Shown piece after piece: positions 1,447-13,070 of a stretch of DNA of 64,000 nt. The stretch is taken from NCBI RefSeq assembly GCF_013409865.1, contig NZ_JACCBM010000001.1, positions 1,798,001 to 1,862,000 on the forward strand, in the 5' to 3' direction. Every line of letters begins with the position of its first letter. Position 1 is the stretch's first letter. The translations under genes were made by a program, and so were the position numbers. A model generated the notes under the pieces. That model saw only the letters and a list, made by a program, of their open reading frames with translations, was not told the DNA's origin and searched no databases. Source of the stretch: Herbiconiux flava. GTDB lineage: Bacteria; Actinomycetota; Actinomycetes; Actinomycetales; Microbacteriaceae.

Positions 1447-3324
1447 ATGGCCAAGGCAGTGGGCATCGACCTCGGCACCACGAACTCGGTGATCGCGGTT
1501 TGGGAAGGGGGAGAGGCGAAAGTCATCCCCAACGCGGAAGGTGCTCGCACCACTCCATCGGTGGTGGCGTTCACCGACACGGGTGAGCGACTCGTGGGGC
1601 AGCTCGCCCGGCGGCAGGCGATCCTGAATCCGAAAGGAACGATCTCGTCGGCCAAGCGCTTCATCGGGCGGAATTTCGACGAGATCGACGAGGAGGCCAA
1701 GGCGGTCGGCTTCGACATCGCAGCCGGGCCGAACGGCGAGGCGCGATTCACGATCCGTGACAAGCTCCACTCGCCGGAGGAGATCAGCGCGCTCGTGCTG
1801 CGCAAGCTCGTCGACGACGCCGCCAAGTTCCTCGGCGAGAAGGTGACCGAGGCGGTCATCACGGTTCCCGCCTACTTCAACGACGCCCAGCGCACCGCGA
1901 CGAAGGATGCCGGCCGCATCGCCGGCCTCGAAGTGCTCCGCATCATCAACGAGCCGACCGCGGCCGCCCTCGCCTACGGCATGGACAAGAAAGAGCACGA
2001 GACGGTGCTCGTGTTCGACCTCGGCGGCGGCACCTTCGACGTGAGCCTCCTGGATGTCGGTGACGGCGTAGTGGAGGTGCGCTCGACGGCCGGCGACACC
2101 CATCTCGGCGGGGACGACTTCGACCGTCGCGTGGTCGACTACCTCGCCGATGAGTTTCAGAAGCTGGAGGGCATCGACCTCCGCAAGGACCCGCAGGCCC
2201 TCCAGCGCTTGTTCGAGGCGGCCGAGAAGGCCAAGGTCGAGCTCAGCACCGTGAGTCAGACGCAGGTCAGTCTGCCGTTCATCACGGCGGATGCCGACGG
2301 CCCGAAACATCTGACGACGACGCTGAAGCGCGCCACGTTCGAGAACATCACCGCCGACCTCGTGGAGCGCTGCCTCGGCCCGGTGCGGCAGGCGATGGAG
2401 GACGCGAAGGTCACCGCCAACGACATCGACGAGGTGATCCTGGTCGGAGGTTCGACGAGGATTCCAGCGGTGCAGAACCTCGTCAAACGACTCACCGGGG
2501 GCAAGGACCCCAACATGACCGTCAATCCCGATGAGGTGGTGGCCGTCGGTGCCGCGATCCAGGCGGGCGTCTTGAAGGGCGAGGTCAGCGACGTCCTCCT
2601 GCTCGACGTGACACCGCTCTCGCTGGGCGTCGAGACGCGCGGCGGCGTGATGACGAAGATCATCGAGCGCAACACCACTATCCCGGCTCGCCGAAGCGAG
2701 GTGTTCTCCACCGCTCAGGACAGCCAGGACTCGGTCGAGATCGTGGTGCTGCAGGGCGAGCGGGAGCGGGCAGCCGACAACCGGGTGCTCGGACGCTTCA
2801 CCCTGACCGGCATCCGGCCGGCCCCGCGCGGCGAACCCCAGGTCGAAGTCACCTTCGACATCGACGCGGACGGCATCCTGAACGTGAAGGCCCGCGATAA
2901 GGACACCGGTGCCGAGCAGGGCATCACGATTAGCGGCACCACGAATCTCGATCAGTCCGAGATCGAGCGTATGGTCCGGGAGGCCGAGCAGAATCGCGGC
3001 GAGGACCAGCGGCTGCGTGAGGACATCGACGCCCGGAACGAGCTCGACGCCGCCGCGTACCGGGTCGAGCGCACGCTCACCGAGCATGGCGATTCCGTGC
3101 CGCAGCATGAGCGCGCTCGGGCCGAGATGCTGATCGGGCAGGCACGAGACGCCGTCGGCCGCGAGGTCTCGGCGGCTGAAGCGCGCGAGTTGACCAGTGA
3201 GTTGCAGCAGATGGATGCCGCGCTGTCCGTCGCCCGGGCATCCGATGCGCCGTCCTCCGAGAATCACACCGAGGACGATTCCGACGACGACGACGTCGTC
3301 GACGCCGAGTTCGATCGAAGCTGA
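1447..3324 (+). CDS. dnaK: Molecular chaperone DnaK (Hsp70)
   Basis: ATP-dependent cytoplasmic Hsp70, 625 residues, close to the usual 610-640. The start ATG at 1447 follows AAAGG (1434-1438) and gives the classic N-terminus [14 protein letters not shown]. The phosphate-1 motif IDLGTTNS is at 7-14, followed by the second phosphate loop ([10 protein letters not shown]) and the adenosine motif (VGGSTRIP). The interdomain linker and start of the substrate-binding domain ([16 protein letters not shown]) lie near residue 381. The alpha-helical lid runs from about 500, and the tail is very acidic ([16 protein letters not shown]). It heads a run of eight coupled genes with grpE 11 bases downstream. 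Actinobacteria usually carry dnaK-grpE-dnaJ-hspR elsewhere; this operon has cbpA/cbpM/clpB instead, so it may be a second, stress-dedicated copy. The housekeeping locus is not in view. Confidence 0.97.
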
Positions 3325-3335
3325 GAGACCGTGAC

Positions 3336-3851
3336 ATGGCCGACCCGGAGGGCACCGACACCGACGTCGACACCGACGCGGGTGCCGCGTCAGCCCCGCC
3401 CGTCGCGCCCGACGATCCGGACCTTCGTCTCGCCGATCTCGAGGACCGCTGGCGCCGTGCGGTCGCCGACCTCGACAACCTGAGAAAGCGGGCGGCTCGG
3501 GAGATCGAATTCGTCCGCGACTCCGAGCGTGCCCAGGCCGCATCCGTCTTCCTCCCCGTCGTCGACGGGCTCGAGGATGCGGTCACCTACGCCCGAGGGC
3601 AGAGCGCCGGCCTGGCCGAAGGCATGCAGGCGATCCGGGAACAGGCCGTCGCCGCGCTCGAGCGCCTCGGTTACCCCCGCATCGACGGGGTCGGGGTGCC
3701 CTTCGACCCGCGCATCCACGAGGTCGTGTCGGTGGTCGGCCGGGGCGACCGGCCGCCGCGAACGGTCGTGGACGTCGCCCGGCTCGGGTTCGGAACCCCG
3801 GATCGGCTGCTGCGGGCCGCCGAAGTCGTCGTCACCTCAGCCGAGGAGTGA
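3336..3851 (+). CDS. grpE: Nucleotide exchange factor GrpE
   Basis: GrpE releases ADP from DnaK and so times substrate release. The 171-residue protein is short for actinobacterial GrpE. It has an acidic, low-complexity N-terminus (repeated TDTDVDTDA), then the long helix that dimerises ([22 protein letters not shown], about 32-53) and the C-terminal beta-wing ([21 protein letters not shown], near 111-131). The DNLRKR and FDPxxHE signatures are both present. It starts 11 bases after dnaK and ends 4 bases before the cbpA start, so the three are almost certainly co-translated. Confidence 0.95.
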
Positions 3852-3855
3852 CATC

Positions 3856-4803
3856 GTGGCGGCCGACGACTACTACCGACTGCTCGGCGTCTCGCGATCG
3901 GCCGACGCCAAGGAGATCCAGCGCGCCTACCGCAAACTGGCCCGCAGGTACCACCCCGACGTCAACAAGGAGACCGGAGCGGAAGACCGGTTCAAGGAGA
4001 TCAGCGAGGCCTACCACGTGCTGGCCGATCCCGATTCGCGGGCGCAGTACGACCGGTTCGGGCCGGACTTCCGTCAGTACGCCGCGGGAGCCGAGCGCGA
4101 GCACGCCTCGCAGACGCGGGCCGGCGCGGCGGGGGGCGGCGGCCGAACCCGAGCGCGCCCCGGGCCTTCGGGATACACCTGGTCGAGCGCTCAAGGCGGC
4201 GCCGGGCCGGGCAGCGCCTCCGTCGACTGGGGAGACCTCTTCGGCGACGTCTTCGGCTCGATGCGGGGAATGGACAACGAAGCCACCCTCGAGCTCACCG
4301 TCGAGGAGGCCTTCCGCGGGGGTGCCCGAACGGTCGTCGTCTCGGGCCCCGACGGCGGCCGCCAGACCTTCGACATCCAGATCCCGGCGGGCGTCCTCGA
4401 CGGCCAACGGATGCGCGTGACCGGCGGCGGGGGCGCGGGCCGGGACGACGGCGGGGCCGGCGACCTCGTCGTCACGTTCCGCGTGCGGCCCGACCGTCAT
4501 CTGCGGCTCGACGGGAAGAACATCGAGATGGACCTGCCGATCTCGCCCTGGGAGGCCGCGCTCGGGACGAGCGTCTCGACCCGGGCTCCCGGCGGCCCGA
4601 TCACCGTGCGGGTTCCGCCCGGCTCGTCCAGCGGCCGCCGCCTGAGGCTGAAGGGTCAGGGCATGCCGCAGTCCGGCGGGAAGCCGGGCGACCTCTTCGC
4701 GAAGGTGAAGATCATGGTCCCGCCGCACCTCACCGACCGTGAACGCGAGCTCTTCGAGACGCTCGGGCACGAGTCCGCCTACGATCCGAGGGCCGCATCA
4801 TGA
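3856..4803 (+). CDS. cbpA: J-domain co-chaperone, CbpA/DnaJ type B (no zinc finger)
   Basis: Hsp40 co-chaperone that delivers substrate to DnaK and stimulates its ATPase. The start is GTG 3856 ([12 protein letters not shown]), 4 bases after the grpE stop; reading further upstream would run into grpE. The J domain spans about 4-67, with the catalytic HPD at 33-35. A Gly-rich linker (about 85-135) is followed by two beta-rich substrate-binding domains (about 140-305). The four CxxCxGxG zinc motifs of DnaJ are absent, so this is a CbpA-type protein of 315 residues. Its direct overlap with a CbpM-like gene supports CbpA over DnaJ. Confidence 0.92.
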
Positions 4804-5107
4804 GCTCTCCGCTGCTTCCGGCGCTCCCACCCCGCCTCGACATCGGGATGGTCGCTGCCGCCTCCGGCACCCACCCCGAACTCGTCGCCCGGTTCGTCGA
4901 GCTCGGCCTCGTCCCGGCGCACCGGGACGGCGCGGGGCGGTTGTGGTTCGACCCGACCGCACCCGGACTGGTGCGGCGGATCGTGCGGCTGCACGCCGAC
5001 CTGTCGCTCAACTATACCGCCGTCGCCCTCGTCATCGACCTGCTCGCCCGCATCGATGTGCTCGAGAGCTGGCGCCGGGTGATCCGTTCCGGAAAGGGGA
5101 CTCCACC

Positions 5108-5117
<10 letters not shown>
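4800..5117 (+). CDS. cbpM: Chaperone modulator CbpM (MerR-like fold)
   Basis: A 105-residue protein whose ATG overlaps the cbpA stop (ATGA, 4800-4803). Residues about 14-45 resemble a winged-helix MerR-like unit ([23 protein letters not shown]). Residues 46-95 carry the CbpM hallmark pattern ([41 protein letters not shown], read as separate short blocks). CbpM binds the J domain of CbpA and blocks its contact with DnaK. HspR, which takes this operon position in many actinobacteria, shares the fold, so a DNA-binding role cannot be excluded, but the helix pattern fits CbpM better. Its last codons overlap the clpB start by 10 bases. Confidence 0.85.
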
Positions 5118-7746
<2,629 letters not shown>

Positions 7747-7750
<4 letters not shown>

Positions 7751-8199
7751 CGACCACGACGGCCACTATCATCCGGTGCCCGAACTGCCAGCACAAGAAC
7801 CGCGTGCTCACGGCCGGCGCGGGGCGGCCGCGCTGCGGAAACTGCCATGAGCCCCTTCCCTGGATCGTCGATGCTCTCGACGACACCTTCGCCGAGGTCG
7901 CGGAGAAGGCCGATCCGCCGGTGATCGTCGACATGTGGGCGACCTGGTGTGGGCCGTGCCGCGTGGTCAGCCCCATCCTGGAGCAGCTGGCCACCGAGCG
8001 AGCGGGCGAGCTGAAGCTCGTGAAGGTGGATGTCGATCGCGCGCCCGGTCTGTCGTCGCGGTTCGGCATCCAGGCCGTCCCGACACTGCTCGTGCTGCAC
8101 GGAGGCGAGGTCATAGCCCGGCAGGCCGGCGCCGCGCCGGTCGGCGTGCTGCGCCGCTGGTTCGACGAGGCGATGGCGAAAGAAAGAGAAGTCTCATGA
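7747..8199 (+). CDS. trxC: Thioredoxin with N-terminal zinc ribbon (TrxC-like)
   Basis: Cytosolic thiol-disulfide oxidoreductase of 150 residues. Cys11/Cys14 and Cys30/Cys33 form a zinc ribbon like that of E. coli thioredoxin 2. The thioredoxin fold follows with the active site W67-C-G-P-C71 and the cis-proline segment (QAVPTLLVL). In TrxC the zinc ribbon tunes redox potential and responds to oxidants. It is coupled to clpB by a 4-base overlap and to the zinc-finger gene by another, so it is made in step with the chaperones. A role in reducing stress-oxidised client proteins, or as electron partner for the fusion oxidoreductase two genes on, is inference. Confidence 0.93.
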
Positions 8200-8459
8200 C
8201 CGTCCGCCCCGATCCCCACCTCGCCTTCGTCCGGCCGGTGTCTCCCCGCACTCCCGGCGCCTGCGAGGACTGTGTGGCCCTCGGCACGCCGTGGGTGCAT
8301 CTGCGGCTGTGTCTGACCTGCGGCAAGGTCGGATGCTGCGACTCGTCGCCGATGAGGCATGCGCGAGCGCACGCACGGCACGACGGGCATCCCATCGTGC
8401 GCTCCCTCGAGCCGGGGGAGACCTGGCGCTGGTGCTACATCGACGAGGACTTCGCCTGA
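8196..8459 (+). CDS. Small UBP-type zinc finger protein
   Basis: An 87-residue stand-alone zf-UBP domain. The ligand set is visible: C23xxC26, C39xxC42, C47, and His residues 55, 59, 62 and 65 in an MRHARAHARHDGHP segment, matching the Cys/His spacing of UBP fingers. In eukaryotes these domains bind the free C-terminal diglycine of ubiquitin. Bacterial versions have no established ligand known to me. The start ATG 8196 overlaps the thioredoxin stop, and its own stop overlaps the next start by one base (TGATG). A peptide C-terminus sensor for damaged proteins would suit the chaperone context but is a hypothesis. Confidence 0.88.
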   Translation: MTVRPDPHLAFVRPVSPRTPGACEDCVALGTPWVHLRLCLTCGKVGCCDSSPMRHARAHARHDGHPIVRSLEPGETWRWCYIDEDFA

Positions 8460-10105
8460 TGCCGGGCCTCGGATCGGGGAGGGTCGTCGTGGAGACGCCG
8501 GACACGCTCGGGGCGTACCCCCGGCTCACGCCTGTGCAGCTGGAGGTTCTGAGGGGGGTGGGATCGCCCGTGCCCGTCTCCGAAGGGCAGGTGCTCATGC
8601 GGGCGGGCGAGGTGCCCGTCTCGTTCTTCGTGGTGCTCGAGGGGCTGCTCGAGGTCTCCGACGGCGAGCAGGTCGGCATCCACGGCCCCGGCCGTTTCGT
8701 GGGCGACATCGGGTTGCTGGAAGGGCAGCCGACCTTCAGCACCACCACCGCGGTGGTCGACGGCGTCGCGCTCGCGGTGCCGATCGAGGAGCTGACGAGG
8801 ATCGTGACCGGCGATCCGCTGCTCGGCGACGTCATCCTGCGCGCCTACCTGATCCGGCGTTCGATGGCGATCGGTTTCGGGGCCGGGCTGCGCGTGATCG
8901 GATCGCCGTTCTCGCCCGACACCCGCCGGCTGCTCGACTTCGCCGCGCGAAACCGGGTTCCGCACCGGTTGCTCGACCTGGAACACGACCCGGGCGCCGA
9001 GGCGATCCTGCGGCGGCTGGGACTCGGCGCCTCCGAGGTGCCGTTAGTGATCGTCGGCGGATCGCGGATCCTCCGGAACCCCTCCGTCGTGCAGGTCGCA
9101 CAGGCGCTCGGCGTGCGGAGCACCCTCCCTCCGGCGAGCAGCGACGTGCTCGTCGTCGGTGCGGGGCCCGCGGGTCTCGCCGCGGCGGTCTACGCCGCCT
9201 CGGACGGACTGTCCGTTCTGCTCACCGACGCCGTCGCGACCGGAGGGCAGGCGGCGCTGTCGGCGCGGATCGAGAACTACCTCGGATTCCCCTCCGGCAT
9301 CTCCGGCGCGGAACTCGCGGAGCGTGGCACCCTCCAGGTCGCGAAGTTCGGCGCCACCCTGGTCACGCCCTCCGTCGCCGAAAGCCTCGTCGTCGACGAA
9401 GGCGCGCTGGTGGTGCGTTTTTCAGACGGAACGAGCGTCACTCCACGGGCGGTGGTGGTCGCATCCGGGATGAGCTACAACCGCCTCGCGGTGACGGGCC
9501 TCGACCGCTTCGAGTACACGAGCGTCTACTACGCCGCCACGGTCAACGAGGCGCGTCAGTGCGGCGCGGAGCCGGTCGTCGTGGTCGGGGGCGGCAACTC
9601 GGCCGGGCAGGCCGCCGTCTTCCTCGCCGGCACCGCGTCGCACGTGAACCTGGTCGTGCGCGGGGCGGATCTCGCGGCGAGCATGTCGCGCTACTTGATC
9701 GTGCAGGTGGAGGAGCATCCCCGCATCACGGTGCATCGGCAGACGGTGGTGGTGGAGGCGAACGGCCGAGCCGAACTCGAGTCGGTCGTCGTCGAGCACG
9801 TGCCCTCGGGTGCGCGAACTGAGATCCTCACGACGAATCTCTTCGTCTTCATCGGGGCGTCGCCGGCCACCTCGTGGCTCGGCCCGGACGTCGCTCGAGA
9901 CGAGCGCGGCTACCTGATCACGGGGAGCGGCACGACACCGTCCGGCGCGAGCAGGCCCGCCCTCGAGACATCGGTTGCGGGTGTCTTCGCCATCGGCGAC
10001 GTCCGCAGCCAGTCGGTCAAGCGGATATCGGCGGCGATCGGCGAAGGAGCGAGCGTCGTGCGGATGGTCCACGATCACATTGCGACCGGCGGCAGCCGAT
10101 CGTGA
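8459..10105 (+). CDS. cNMP-binding / thioredoxin-like / thioredoxin-reductase-like fusion oxidoreductase
   Basis: A 548-residue three-domain protein. Residues about 20-125 look like a cyclic-nucleotide-binding barrel (FFVVLEGLLEV, GRFVGDIGLLEGQ). Residues about 145-220 resemble a thioredoxin/glutaredoxin fold but have no CxxC. From 228 on it is a pyridine nucleotide-disulfide oxidoreductase: FAD loop GAGPAG at 234-239, the ATGGQ and ENYLGFP segments, a NADPH loop (VVGGGNSAGQAA), and the C-terminal FAD motif GVFAIGDVR. The CxxC redox pair of thioredoxin reductase (usually CATCDG) is replaced by a segment reading SVYYAATVNEARQC, so electron transfer to thioredoxin by the usual route is not possible. 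FAD and NADPH binding should be intact. It is the last tightly coupled gene of the chaperone operon. Confidence 0.88.
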   Translation: MPGLGSGRVVVETPDTLGAYPRLTPVQLEVLRGVGSPVPVSEGQVLMRAGEVPVSFFVVLEGLLEVSDGEQVGIHGPGRFVGDIGLLEGQPTFSTTTAVVDGVALAVPIEELTRIVTGDPLLGDVILRAYLIRRSMAIGFGAGLRVIGSPFSPDTRRLLDFAARNRVPHRLLDLEHDPGAEAILRRLGLGASEVPLVIVGGSRILRNPSVVQVAQALGVRSTLPPASSDVLVVGAGPAGLAAAVYAASDGLSVLLTDAVATGGQAALSARIENYLGFPSGISGAELAERGTLQVAKFGATLVTPSVAESLVVDEGALVVRFSDGTSVTPRAVVVASGMSYNRLAVTGLDRFEYTSVYYAATVNEARQCGAEPVVVVGGGNSAGQAAVFLAGTASHVNLVVRGADLAASMSRYLIVQVEEHPRITVHRQTVVVEANGRAELESVVVEHVPSGARTEILTTNLFVFIGASPATSWLGPDVARDERGYLITGSGTTPSGASRPALETSVAGVFAIGDVRSQSVKRISAAIGEGASVVRMVHDHIATGGSRS

Positions 10106-10163
10106 GCGGCCGTGTGCCGACCGACTCCACGAGCACACACCACCAGAAGGGAAAGGGATCGTC

Positions 10164-10739
10164 ATGTCACGCATCACCATCATCGGCAAGGGCTCCATGG
10201 GCGACGCCATCGGGGGTGTGTTCGCCGCGGGAGGCAGCGATGTCGCCTACGTCACGCATGGCCAGACCGAGGCGACCATCTCGGGCGACATCGTTGTGCT
10301 CGCGGTTCCCCATCCCGAGGTCGACGGCATCCTGACCGCCTTCGGTGCGCAACTCGAAGGCAAGACGGTCGTCGACATCACCAACCCGCTCGACTTCTCG
10401 ACCTTCGACTCGCTCGTGGTGCCCGCCGACGCGTCCGCCGCATCCCACATCCAGGCGGAGCTCCTCGAGAGCCGCGTGCTCAAGGCGTTCAACACCACCT
10501 TCGCCGCCACCCTCGTGCACAGGCAGCTGGGCGGTGTGCCGACCACCGTGCTCGTGGCGGGCGACGACGCCGACGCCAAGGCCGCGCTGATCGAGGCGAT
10601 CACGGCCGGCGGCGTCTCGGCGCTCGACGCGGGGGCCCTGAGCCGCGCGCGCGAACTCGAGGCGATCGGGTTTCTGCAGCTCACGCTCGCGGTGAGCGAG
10701 AAGATCGGGTGGAACGGCGGCTTCGCCGTGATCCGCTGA
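10164..10739 (+). CDS. F420-type NADP oxidoreductase, coenzyme-binding domain protein
   Basis: A 191-residue Rossmann protein. The N-terminal dinucleotide motif IIGKGSMGDAIGGVF is followed by the VLAVPHPEVDGI and VVDITNPLDF segments typical of NADPH:F420 reductases (F420_oxidored family). The ATG at 10164 is preceded by GGGAAAGGG. It lies 58 bases after the fusion oxidoreductase with no terminator visible, so it is probably the ninth gene of the stress operon. Many homologues act on other substrates, so a true F420 role is unproven. A second, longer member of the family is at 16386-17054. Confidence 0.8.
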   Translation: MSRITIIGKGSMGDAIGGVFAAGGSDVAYVTHGQTEATISGDIVVLAVPHPEVDGILTAFGAQLEGKTVVDITNPLDFSTFDSLVVPADASAASHIQAELLESRVLKAFNTTFAATLVHRQLGGVPTTVLVAGDDADAKAALIEAITAGGVSALDAGALSRARELEAIGFLQLTLAVSEKIGWNGGFAVIR

Positions 10740-10772
10740 CGAGACACGCGCGGAGGCGGTGACAGTAGGCGG

Positions 10773-11276
10773 TCAGTCGCCCGTGGTGCCGTCGGCCAGC
10801 TCGCGGAGGATGTCGAGGTGGCCGTTGTGGCGGGCGTTCTCCTCGATGAGGTGCAGGATCACCCAGCGGAGCGTCGGATGCTCGCCCGAGCGGAACGATG
10901 TCTGCGACCGGTCGTCGAGCTGCAGGCCGGCGATGATCGCGTCGGTCGCGACTGCCTGGGCGCGGTAGCCGTCGATCACGGTCTGCAGCGGCAGGGTGGC
11001 GCCGTCGATGAACTCCTGGTCGGGGGACTCGTCTGTCCAGGGGCCGAGGTCGGGGCCGCCGACGAAGCGGTTCTCGATCCAGGAGTGCTCGACCCAGCGC
11101 AGGTGGTTGAGCACGCCGCCGACGCTCATCAGCGGTGACGTGGCGAGCGGGGCGGCTGCGGCCTGTGCATCCGTCAGACCCGTCGACTTCTCGATGGCGG
11201 TGTCGCGGGTGTACTGCAGCATCGTGAGCAGGGTCGATCGTTCGTCCCAGGCTTCGGGGTGGTCGGTGCGTTCCAT
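10773..11276 (-). CDS. DinB/DUF664 family protein (mycothiol-transferase-like)
   Basis: A 167-residue four-helix DinB-type protein. The N-terminal helix (LLTMLQYTRDTAIEK) is followed by GVLNHLRWVEHSWIENRFVGG and the late EENARHNGHLDILREL. The His residues in those three blocks (LNHLRWVEH, RHNGHLD) match the nickel/zinc triad of the DUF664 subfamily, which includes mycothiol-dependent S-transferases in actinobacteria. It converges on the stress operon and is followed, 50 bases upstream on the same strand, by a TetR gene, so the two may be co-transcribed. The substrate is unknown. Confidence 0.85.
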   Translation of the reverse strand: MERTDHPEAWDERSTLLTMLQYTRDTAIEKSTGLTDAQAAAAPLATSPLMSVGGVLNHLRWVEHSWIENRFVGGPDLGPWTDESPDQEFIDGATLPLQTVIDGYRAQAVATDAIIAGLQLDDRSQTSFRSGEHPTLRWVILHLIEENARHNGHLDILRELADGTTGD

Positions 11277-11326
11277 GCATCGAGTATCACCGAGCGAGCC
11301 CGCGAGCGCACTCGTCGGGACTGCTT

Positions 11327-11893
11327 CTACCGAGTGCGGAGGCCGTCGAGAAGCAGCCGCACCATCGGGTTCGGCGTGCCGTCGGGGGAGGGGGCGCGGT
11401 GGCTGAGATCGCCGACGGCCTGGAGGAGTTCGAGGGGGTCGACGTCATCGCGGATGTCGCCGGACGCTGCGGCCGCGTCGAGCAGCGAGGCGAGGGCCGG
11501 GCCGAGCTTGCCCATGAGCAGCGCGGGCAGGGCGTCGAACGCCGGGTCGCCTGAGCGGAGCGCATCCGAGAGGCCCTGCTTGGTCGCGACGAAGCGGGTG
11601 AAGCGGGTGATCCAGAGGTCGAGCGCTTCCTTCGGCGGATGCTCGGCCAGCAGCTCGGCCGCCGCCGCAGCCGTGGCGTCGATCTCCGAGGTGAAGACCG
11701 CGGCCACGAGCTCGGCGCGGTTGGGGAAGTGGCGGTAGAGGGTGCCGACCCCGACTCCGGCTTCGGTGGCGATCTCGCGGGCCGGCGCATCCACCCCGGA
11801 GCGGGCGAAGACCGTGCGCGCGGCGGTGAGGAGGGCGTCGAGGTTCTGCCGCGCATCCGCTCGCACCTTGCGCGGCTCGGTCGGTAAGGTCAC
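11327..11893 (-). CDS. TetR-family transcriptional regulator
   Basis: A 188-residue repressor-type protein. The HTH lies at about 17-60 (LLTAARTVFARSGVDAPAREIATEAGVGVGTLYRHFPNRAELV, read as blocks), and a variable helical ligand domain fills the rest. The start is GTG 11893 with AAGGGG upstream. It is divergent from an aldo-keto reductase across a 92-base gap that holds two copies of a CGGAAC-N3-GTTCCG palindrome, the probable operators. That arrangement predicts autoregulation and control of the reductase. Confidence 0.93.
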   Translation of the reverse strand: MTLPTEPRKVRADARQNLDALLTAARTVFARSGVDAPAREIATEAGVGVGTLYRHFPNRAELVAAVFTSEIDATAAAAAELLAEHPPKEALDLWITRFTRFVATKQGLSDALRSGDPAFDALPALLMGKLGPALASLLDAAAASGDIRDDVDPLELLQAVGDLSHRAPSPDGTPNPMVRLLLDGLRTR

Positions 11894-11913
11894 GGCAAGG
11901 CCCCTTGCTTAAT

Positions 11914-11928
11914 CGGAACCATGTTCCG
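11914..11928. promoter_or_regulatory. Putative TetR operator 1
   Basis: CGGAAC-CAT-GTTCCG, perfect 6-base arms, starting 21 bases upstream of the TetR GTG. The second copy begins exactly 32 bases away, about three helical turns, so two dimers could sit on the same face of the DNA. Confidence 0.75.
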
Positions 11929-11945
11929 TATAGTAATCAGCGTAG

Positions 11946-11960
11946 CGGAACGGTGTTCCG
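11946..11960. promoter_or_regulatory. Putative TetR operator 2
   Basis: CGGAAC-GGT-GTTCCG, the same arms as operator 1 with a different centre, ending 25 bases before the aldo-keto reductase ATG and just upstream of its AGGAGG ribosome binding site (11975-11980). Binding here would block that promoter directly. Confidence 0.75.
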
Positions 11961-11985
11961 TATCTGATCCTAACAGGAGGACCCC

Positions 11986-13008
11986 ATGCAGTATCGACCC
12001 CTCGGACGCACCGGAATCCAGGTGACGCCCTACGCGCTGGGCGCCATGATGCTCGGCTCGTTCGGCAATCCCGATCGCAAGGAGGGCGTGCGGATCATCC
12101 ACCGCGCGCTGGAGGGCGGCATCAACTTCATCGACACGGCCGACCGCTACGGCGACTCGGAGGAGGTGGTGGGCGAGGCGCTCGTCGGGCGGCGCGACGA
12201 CGTCGTGCTCGCCACCAAGTTCTGGGGTCCCGTCGACGACGACGTGAACCATCGCGGGGCCTCGCGGAGGTGGATCCGGCAGGCCGTCGAGCGCTCGCTG
12301 CGCAACCTGCAGACCGACCGCATCGACCTCTACCAGCTGCACCGGCCGGAGCCCGACACCGACATCGACGAGACCCTCTCCGCGCTCACCGACCTCGTGC
12401 GCGAGGGCAAGGTGCTCGCGATCGGCACGTCGTCGATGCGCGGGTCGGAGATCGTCGAGGCGCAGTGGGTCTCGGAGCGGCGCGGGTTCGAGCGGTTCCG
12501 CACCGAGCAGCCGAACTACTCGATCCTCGATCGCGAGATCGAGCGGGAGATCCTGCCGGTGGCTCAGCGCTATGGCATGGGCACGCTCGTCTACAGCCCG
12601 CTCGCGGGCGGGGCGCTGTCGGGCAAGTACCGCGCGGGGCAGGCGAACGAGAACTTCCGGGCGAGTACTGGTATGCGGCATTTTCAGGATGAGCGGCGGC
12701 TCGGTGCCATCGAGCAGCTCATCTCGCTGGCGGAGGAGGCGGGGATGCCGCTGACGCACCTGGCGATGGCGTTCGCCGTCGCGCATCCGGGAGTCACCTC
12801 GGCGATCGCGGGGCCGCGCACCATGGAGCAGCTCGAGGACACCCTGGCGGGCGCCGAGGTCTCACTGTCGGACGAGATCCTCGACCGGATCGACGCGATC
12901 GTTCCTCCGGGTGAGAGCATCGGGGCGATGGACATGGTCTACCGCGGGCCCGAGGTCGCGGATGCCACGCTGCGGCGCCGCCCGGCGTCCGCTCGCTCGG
13001 CGCGGTAG
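11986..13008 (+). CDS. Aldo/keto reductase
   Basis: NADPH-dependent TIM-barrel reductase of 340 residues. The ATG follows a strong AGGAGG. Catalytic tetrad blocks are visible: FIDTADRYGDSEEVVG (Asp and Tyr), VLATKFWG (Lys) and LYQLHRPEPD (His). The nucleotide-binding end reads GVTSAIAGPRTMEQLED. It is transcribed away from a TetR gene with two operators between them, so it is probably induced by a carbonyl compound sensed by that repressor. The C-terminus is extended and Arg/Ala-rich (RRRPASARSAR). Confidence 0.93.
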   Translation: MQYRPLGRTGIQVTPYALGAMMLGSFGNPDRKEGVRIIHRALEGGINFIDTADRYGDSEEVVGEALVGRRDDVVLATKFWGPVDDDVNHRGASRRWIRQAVERSLRNLQTDRIDLYQLHRPEPDTDIDETLSALTDLVREGKVLAIGTSSMRGSEIVEAQWVSERRGFERFRTEQPNYSILDREIEREILPVAQRYGMGTLVYSPLAGGALSGKYRAGQANENFRASTGMRHFQDERRLGAIEQLISLAEEAGMPLTHLAMAFAVAHPGVTSAIAGPRTMEQLEDTLAGAEVSLSDEILDRIDAIVPPGESIGAMDMVYRGPEVADATLRRRPASARSAR

Positions 13009-13070
13009 CGCGCTCGAGTTCGTGGCGCTGAGCTTCGAGCGGCACAGTTGAGTTAACGCGGTCGGTGGCG

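Follow-up and report, generated by a model that had tools for sequence, protein, structure and literature searches.

Genes at the locus

A 64,000-nucleotide stretch of the Herbiconiux flava genome (contig NZ_JACCBM010000001.1, positions 1,798,001 to 1,862,000), referred to here as the window, contains at positions 1447 to 10739 a string of nine genes encoding a complete disaggregation machinery and several redox-related proteins. Positions are those of the window, negative values (in locus L013) lying upstream of its start, while C1 is the contig label used for the organism's own 3.85 Mb genome (G000). Gene families were called with Pfam and NCBIfam profiles. The nine genes are intact and all encoded on the plus strand; the place, order and spacing given for them in an earlier note on this DNA were confirmed, and the families were borne out by both profile collections.

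The string starts with an accessory copy of dnaK (1447 to 3324; TIGR02350, 944.5 bits, cut-off 822.55), followed by grpE (3336 to 3851; PF01025, 103.3 bits) and a gene with a GTG start for a CbpA-type J protein (3856 to 4803), which matches PF00226 (DnaJ) and PF01556 (DnaJ_C) and no zinc-finger profile. Next are a cbpM-type gene (4800 to 5117), the product of which is a MerR_2 protein (PF13591, 44.6 bits, over the cut-off), and clpB, encoding the disaggregase (5108 to 7750; TIGR03346, 1325.3 bits, cut-off 1232.1). With ClpB and DnaK over their NCBIfam cut-offs and GrpE and the J protein present, the disaggregase set is complete. The cbpM product scores 30.2 bits on the NCBIfam CbpM model, below the cut-off of 138, and its best match in the PDB is CbpM (3ucs, E 3.1e-05). 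A CbpM holds its cognate J domain in check by binding to it. Downstream of clpB, a zinc-ribbon thioredoxin of the Trx2/TrxC type (7747 to 8199; PF00085, 82.4 bits), a UBP-type zinc finger, zfUBP (8196 to 8459; PF02148, 53.6 bits), and a fusion flavoprotein with CRP-like, Grx-like and TrxR-like domains (8459 to 10105; PF00027, 51.8 bits; PF07992, 108.2 bits) are encoded; these three genes are termed the tail. The ninth gene (10164 to 10739; PF03807, 30.8 bits) is of the F420_oxidored type. From dnaK onwards, the joints measure +11, +4, -4, -10, -4, -4, -1 and +58 bases. A tRNA-Arg called by ARAGORN inside grpE (3727 to 3810) is probably spurious, because the coding frame is conserved there.

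Divergently from dnaK, with its start approximately 190 bases before that gene, a 556 aa PucR-type protein is encoded on the minus strand (1 to 1256, extending approximately 415 bases upstream of the window; PF13556 HTH_30, 80.5 bits; PF17853, 48.7 bits). It does not figure in the earlier note and is likely the regulator of the operon.

Thioredoxin, zinc finger and flavoprotein

The thioredoxin carries the two CxxC motifs of a zinc ribbon (CPNC and CGNC) followed by WCGPC, the motif set of Thioredoxin 2/TrxC, and scores 110.4 bits on the NCBIfam TrxC model, below the cut-off of 125. WCGPC is conserved in 62 of 69 aligned relatives, 61 of which also possess the two upstream CxxC motifs; among the remaining seven, four have WCAPC and three are partial. 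The nearest solved relative of zfUBP is 2ida (E 2.5e-27). In ubiquitin-binding ZnF-UBP domains, an arginine binds the carboxylate of the C-terminal Gly-Gly. In the alignment of zfUBP to HDAC6, the CGRY stretch stands opposite CCDSS, and the arginine for the ubiquitin carboxylate appears to be absent.

The C-terminal domain of the fusion protein shares the fold of TrxB. In a structure model built with 25 of 81 fusion sequences, residues 223 to 547 are predicted to resemble thioredoxin reductases, AhpF and FNR-type proteins, AhpF being first by E-value in one comparison (residues 259 to 281 have a pLDDT below 50). It might be asked whether the fusion protein is dedicated to reducing the operon thioredoxin with NAD(P)H and so closes the thioredoxin system, which is what the name thioredoxin-disulfide reductase, given to some relatives in public annotation, implies. 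This is improbable, as no CxxC was found in any of the 81 fusion sequences, 80 of which reach the TrxR domain while one is truncated before it, and the protein scores only 196.1 bits on the TRX_reduct model (TIGR01292, cut-off 343.45); the annotation thus finds no support in the sequence. Moreover, the genome already encodes an ordinary TrxB (C1:799997-800899) with a CATC motif and a score over the TrxB cut-off. The fusion protein further differs from TrxB in its additional CRP-like and Grx-like domains. A single cysteine, Cys368, is conserved in the fusion family. A second TrxR-like flavoprotein of the same genome (L183, G000:C1:3080618-3081583) also lacks CxxC and has a single, similarly placed cysteine.

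The earlier note had described the fusion protein as a cNMP/thioredoxin-like sensor. Such a protein would read a cyclic nucleotide with its CRP-like domain, switch the flavoprotein and report the redox state to the chaperones. The PF00027 score is over the cut-off, and the N-terminal domain of the model is predicted to be rich in strands, as such a reading would have it. Position 93, which we take to be the equivalent of the phosphate-binding cassette residue Arg82 of CRP, is occupied by F (66), L (9), Y (4), V (1) or H (1) in the 81 sequences and by arginine in none of them, which makes canonical cyclic nucleotide binding unlikely and leaves room for another ligand. The Grx-like domain has serine at the Grx site, the active-site cysteine being absent in the family. 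Cyclic nucleotide sensing is accordingly given as little credit as the dedicated reductase, and the description as a sensor was dropped because phosphate Arg, Grx Cys and TrxR CxxC are all missing. Judged from its sequence, the fusion protein is neither a canonical thioredoxin reductase nor a canonical cNMP sensor.

Conservation of the gene order

With the fusion protein as query over species genomes, 144 relatives were obtained, the best 80 of which were kept as loci and scored for the block with tblastn (E <=1e-3, with no more than 1.5 kb between neighbours). The order dnaK-grpE-cbpA-cbpM-clpB-trx-(zf)-fusion was found in 62 of these 80 loci, 55 with zfUBP and seven without a detectable zfUBP, which upholds the claim of a full disaggregase, thioredoxin, UBP finger and fusion protein encoded in one tight string. 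Hosts among these best 80 of 144 relatives include Microbacteriaceae, Streptomyces, Nocardioides, Kribbella, Nonomuraea and Actinoplanes; the locus closest to the window is that of a Plantibacter sp. (L014). Of the other 18 loci, seven have less than 7.2 kb of sequence upstream, and several have chaperone genes elsewhere in the locus (for example L039, L047, L051, L063, L083, L087 and L093). In 61 of 63 loci cbpM and clpB overlap by exactly 10 bases, and joints of at most 20 bases were counted for clpB-trx in 54 of 65, for trx-zfUBP in 39 of 60 and for zfUBP-fusion in 51 of 63 loci, single values being approximate, with a few artefacts, because starts in the relatives were set from alignments. 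Short or overlapping joints across distant genera suggest selection for co-translation.

The F420-type gene had been counted as a member of the unit. It is the same-strand neighbour of the fusion gene in two of the 80 loci only (L014 and L015), and the similarity of both to the window ends at 10737, at the end of this gene; given its rarity next to the fusion gene, it is placed outside the conserved block. Its product scores 76.3 bits on the npdG model (TIGR01915, cut-off 149.8). The identity as an NADPH-dependent F420 reductase was rejected on this score, and a link to F420 is not established.

A second set of loci was chosen with the CbpM protein alone, which matched in 44 of 394 genomes of the class (own genome included) at 49 places. 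The 48 places outside the window were all examined, a tail being defined as trx, zfUBP or fusion within 3 kb downstream of clpB on the same strand. clpB adjoins cbpM at 40 of these places but not at seven, and at the last one tblastn gave no cbpM. At least one tail gene follows clpB in 22 of the 40 (in L164 a fusion fragment only), a count taken from related genomes and thus not of independent events, whereas 18 lack any tail gene; among the latter, one has less than 3 kb of sequence and another (L138) has clpB and dnaK split in frame. A fusion relative (E <=1e-80) was found in 52 of 296 genomes of the phylum, with at most four candidates scored per genome, from which the chance of a fusion gene lying that close to clpB (3 kb) at random was estimated, not permuted, as far below 1 in 1000. 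The association of the tail with clpB is therefore judged to be far above chance, and yet the tail is optional. The co-occurrence check proposed in the earlier note came out in favour of trx, zfUBP and fusion, and the picture of a fixed machine was not supported.

An optional tail invites an explanation by passenger genes, in which the locus is a second disaggregase locus and trx, zfUBP and fusion are neighbours co-transferred on a stress island without a joint mechanism. The 18 tail-less loci would fit this, as would six places in which a fusion gene and a nearby zfUBP occur without a chaperone match (L108/L131, L109, L110, L122, L123 and L125; 20 kb of sequence was read at four of them and only some 4.6 kb at the other two) and the further cargo of one mobile form (L030), comprising Hsp20, an alpha/beta hydrolase and a YflT protein, all confirmed by Pfam. 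The short or overlapping joints in distant genera speak against it, as does the position of zfUBP directly behind cbpM in two loci without clpB (L176 and L177). Passenger status of the tail is a possibility of some weight, although it is held to be the less probable account. Judging from the chaperone-less zfUBP-fusion pairs and the cbpM-zfUBP loci, zfUBP and fusion appear to be a separate module that became attached to the chaperones.

Accessory chaperone set, mobility and known systems

The genome harbours another dnaK (C1:730-732 kb), which belongs to a minus-strand operon dnaK-grpE-dnaJ-hspR (approximately C1:728-732 kb), with HspR at G000:C1:728112-728375 (135.4 bits, cut-off 105). A further ClpB-like frame (61% identical) is located at C1:720172-722307, about 6 kb from the HspR operon. 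Window DnaK and the other DnaK are 59% identical. Each of the 62 block loci encodes a DnaK that scores better with the window DnaK, at a median identity of 80%, than with the housekeeping DnaK of H. flava, at a median of 55%. The genome carries both kinds of operon side by side, that of the window being the accessory set. That HspR is missing, as previously stated, holds for the window operon and not for the genome. The cbpM product scores 21 bits on the HspR model, and the operon is thus not of the HspR type; replacement of HspR by CbpM, which had been proposed, is contradicted by the presence of HspR in the second, canonical operon and of a divergent PucR-type gene at the window operon itself.

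Several lines of evidence point to mobility. cbpM was found in only three of 120 genomes of the family, own genome included. Fusion relatives are present in 10 of 16 genomes of the genus (own included). Only the genome of the window and G121 have the operon type, and identity in the remaining ones is 39-45%. One fusion paralogue (L113, in the congener G120) contains an in-frame TGA. The right-flank gene is present in eight of the 16 genomes, and the left-flank gene, encoding an 812 aa ATPase with TPR repeats (-2889 to -451; STAND-like only below the cut-off), in the two operon carriers only. In congener G131 (L200), about 80 bases separate the right flank (10769 to 13018) from the left one (-5966 to -6456), so that approximately 16.7 kb including the operon are absent there. 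An apparently truncated, MFS-like frame (233 aa, named by eye; about -6524 to -5823) is located at the left edge of the missing segment, the left part of which has mostly 58-63% GC compared to about 70% in the window.

Ten loci (L021, L022, L023, L024, L026, L027, L029, L030, L040 and L072) are nearly identical, with 94.5-98.3% of nucleotides shared over 9-14 kb when the longest piece is taken for each of the 45 pairs (91-94% in further, shorter pieces). Their hosts belong to Microbacterium, other Microbacteriaceae, Brevibacterium, Brachybacterium, Actinomyces and Piscicoccus. A Pfam-confirmed integrase or transposase frame was found in four of the six islands with flanks read (L022, L027, L030 and L072). 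At this level of nucleotide identity, the islands demonstrate that a close relative of the block was recently transferred among genera. Copies of the operon were found in all three plasmid regions opened (Streptomyces, without zfUBP, and two Rhodococcus), and some fusion relative (E <=1e-60) is present in 117 plasmid records; none of the 36 plasmid records matching the near-identical island holds 80% of it, so that this form was not seen on a plasmid. The block of the window was probably acquired horizontally as a second set.

The region upstream of dnaK is variable. A PucR-type relative is encoded divergently in 38 of the 62 block loci, with no match in the ten near-identical islands. Directly upstream of dnaK, an Hsp20-like frame is located in 16 of the 62 (L015, L017, L018, L019, L020, L036, L048 and nine of the ten islands) and not in the window; a comparison of the gap between regulator and dnaK in six Microbacteriaceae revealed mainly that L015, L018 and L019 have an Hsp20 gene inserted there.

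Besides the tail-less loci, several results weigh against the reading as an accessory mobile stress operon. A clean empty site was seen in one of six congener regions only (L200); in L195 and L199 the flanks are about 5-6 kb apart, and in L196 to L198 the left flank was not seen there. G131 may have lost the block rather than never gained it. Low GC extends past the left edge of the missing segment and is thus no clean marker of it. HspR-type dnaK operons have hspR as fourth gene and a HAIR site upstream. Near the window dnaK no HAIR-like site was found at up to three mismatches, the only match in the window being at 10464 (0.80 expected by chance). A scan for the sigma-70 consensus, which covers actinobacterial promoters poorly, gave no site. 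Of five terminator-like sites (2.3 expected), both on the plus strand lie inside the fusion gene and none at the end of the operon.

On balance, the string is probably an accessory, horizontally moving stress operon, in which a second complete DnaK-GrpE-J protein-ClpB set is combined with a thioredoxin and a UBP-finger/flavoprotein pair. This confidence applies to the accessory mobile operon as a whole and overlaps with the passenger explanation, which denies the joint role of the tail only. In such an operon, the divergent PucR-type protein and CbpM would control expression and the J protein, respectively, and DnaK, the J protein, GrpE and ClpB would pull apart aggregates damaged by heat or oxidants. 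The operon thioredoxin might reduce wrong disulphides in the extracted chains and be recharged by the housekeeping TrxB rather than by the fusion protein. Least certain is the role of zfUBP and the fusion protein, which might act as a redox-responsive adaptor or regulator, with a chemistry based on Cys368 and FAD instead of a dithiol.

The common actinobacterial dnaK-grpE-dnaJ-hspR operon, present in this genome, shares the order of the core chaperone genes with the window block, which in contrast lacks HspR and has a DnaK only 59% identical. The dnaK operon of Thermus thermophilus includes DafA and clpB in its gene order and is not known to carry a redox tail. DafA is reported to occur in complex with DnaK and DnaJ as a small third partner (PMC3727329). 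It is in this small partner and in the gene order with clpB that the window block resembles it. A heat shock island encoding DnaK, GrpE, CbpM, ClpB "and others" is mentioned for Propionibacterium freudenreichii JS9/JS20, in a passage that names no thioredoxin, UBP finger or flavoprotein (PMC5644110). An island with these chaperones is thus already in print, and no account of the redox tail was found among the titles and abstract openings listed in the literature searched (subscription journals being largely outside).

The proteobacterial tLST is described as a transferable protein-quality island with a disaggregase, small Hsps and a thioredoxin (PMC8290217). The window block resembles it as a transferable island with disaggregase and thioredoxin. 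It differs in that the tLST disaggregase is ClpG, whereas the window encodes ClpB (780.5 of 1900 bits on the ClpG model, hence no tLST core gene) with its own DnaK, J protein and GrpE; a UBP finger and a TrxR-like fusion are not named in the passages on tLST. As far as these sources go, protein-rescue islands are described as spreading in Proteobacteria (PMC8290217), with one passing mention found for Actinobacteria (PMC5644110). The block places a bacterial UBP finger in a genomic context, and its conserved string of bichaperone system, thioredoxin and non-canonical flavoprotein is a testable case for a coupling of disaggregation to redox repair. A tentative and rather doubtful extension would see in it a mobile actinobacterial equivalent of the stress-tolerance locus of Proteobacteria, with ClpB and an Hsp70 set of its own at the core, in which the UBP finger and the cysteine-poor TrxR-like flavoprotein might serve as an adaptor coupling disaggregation to thioredoxin-dependent repair of oxidised clients.

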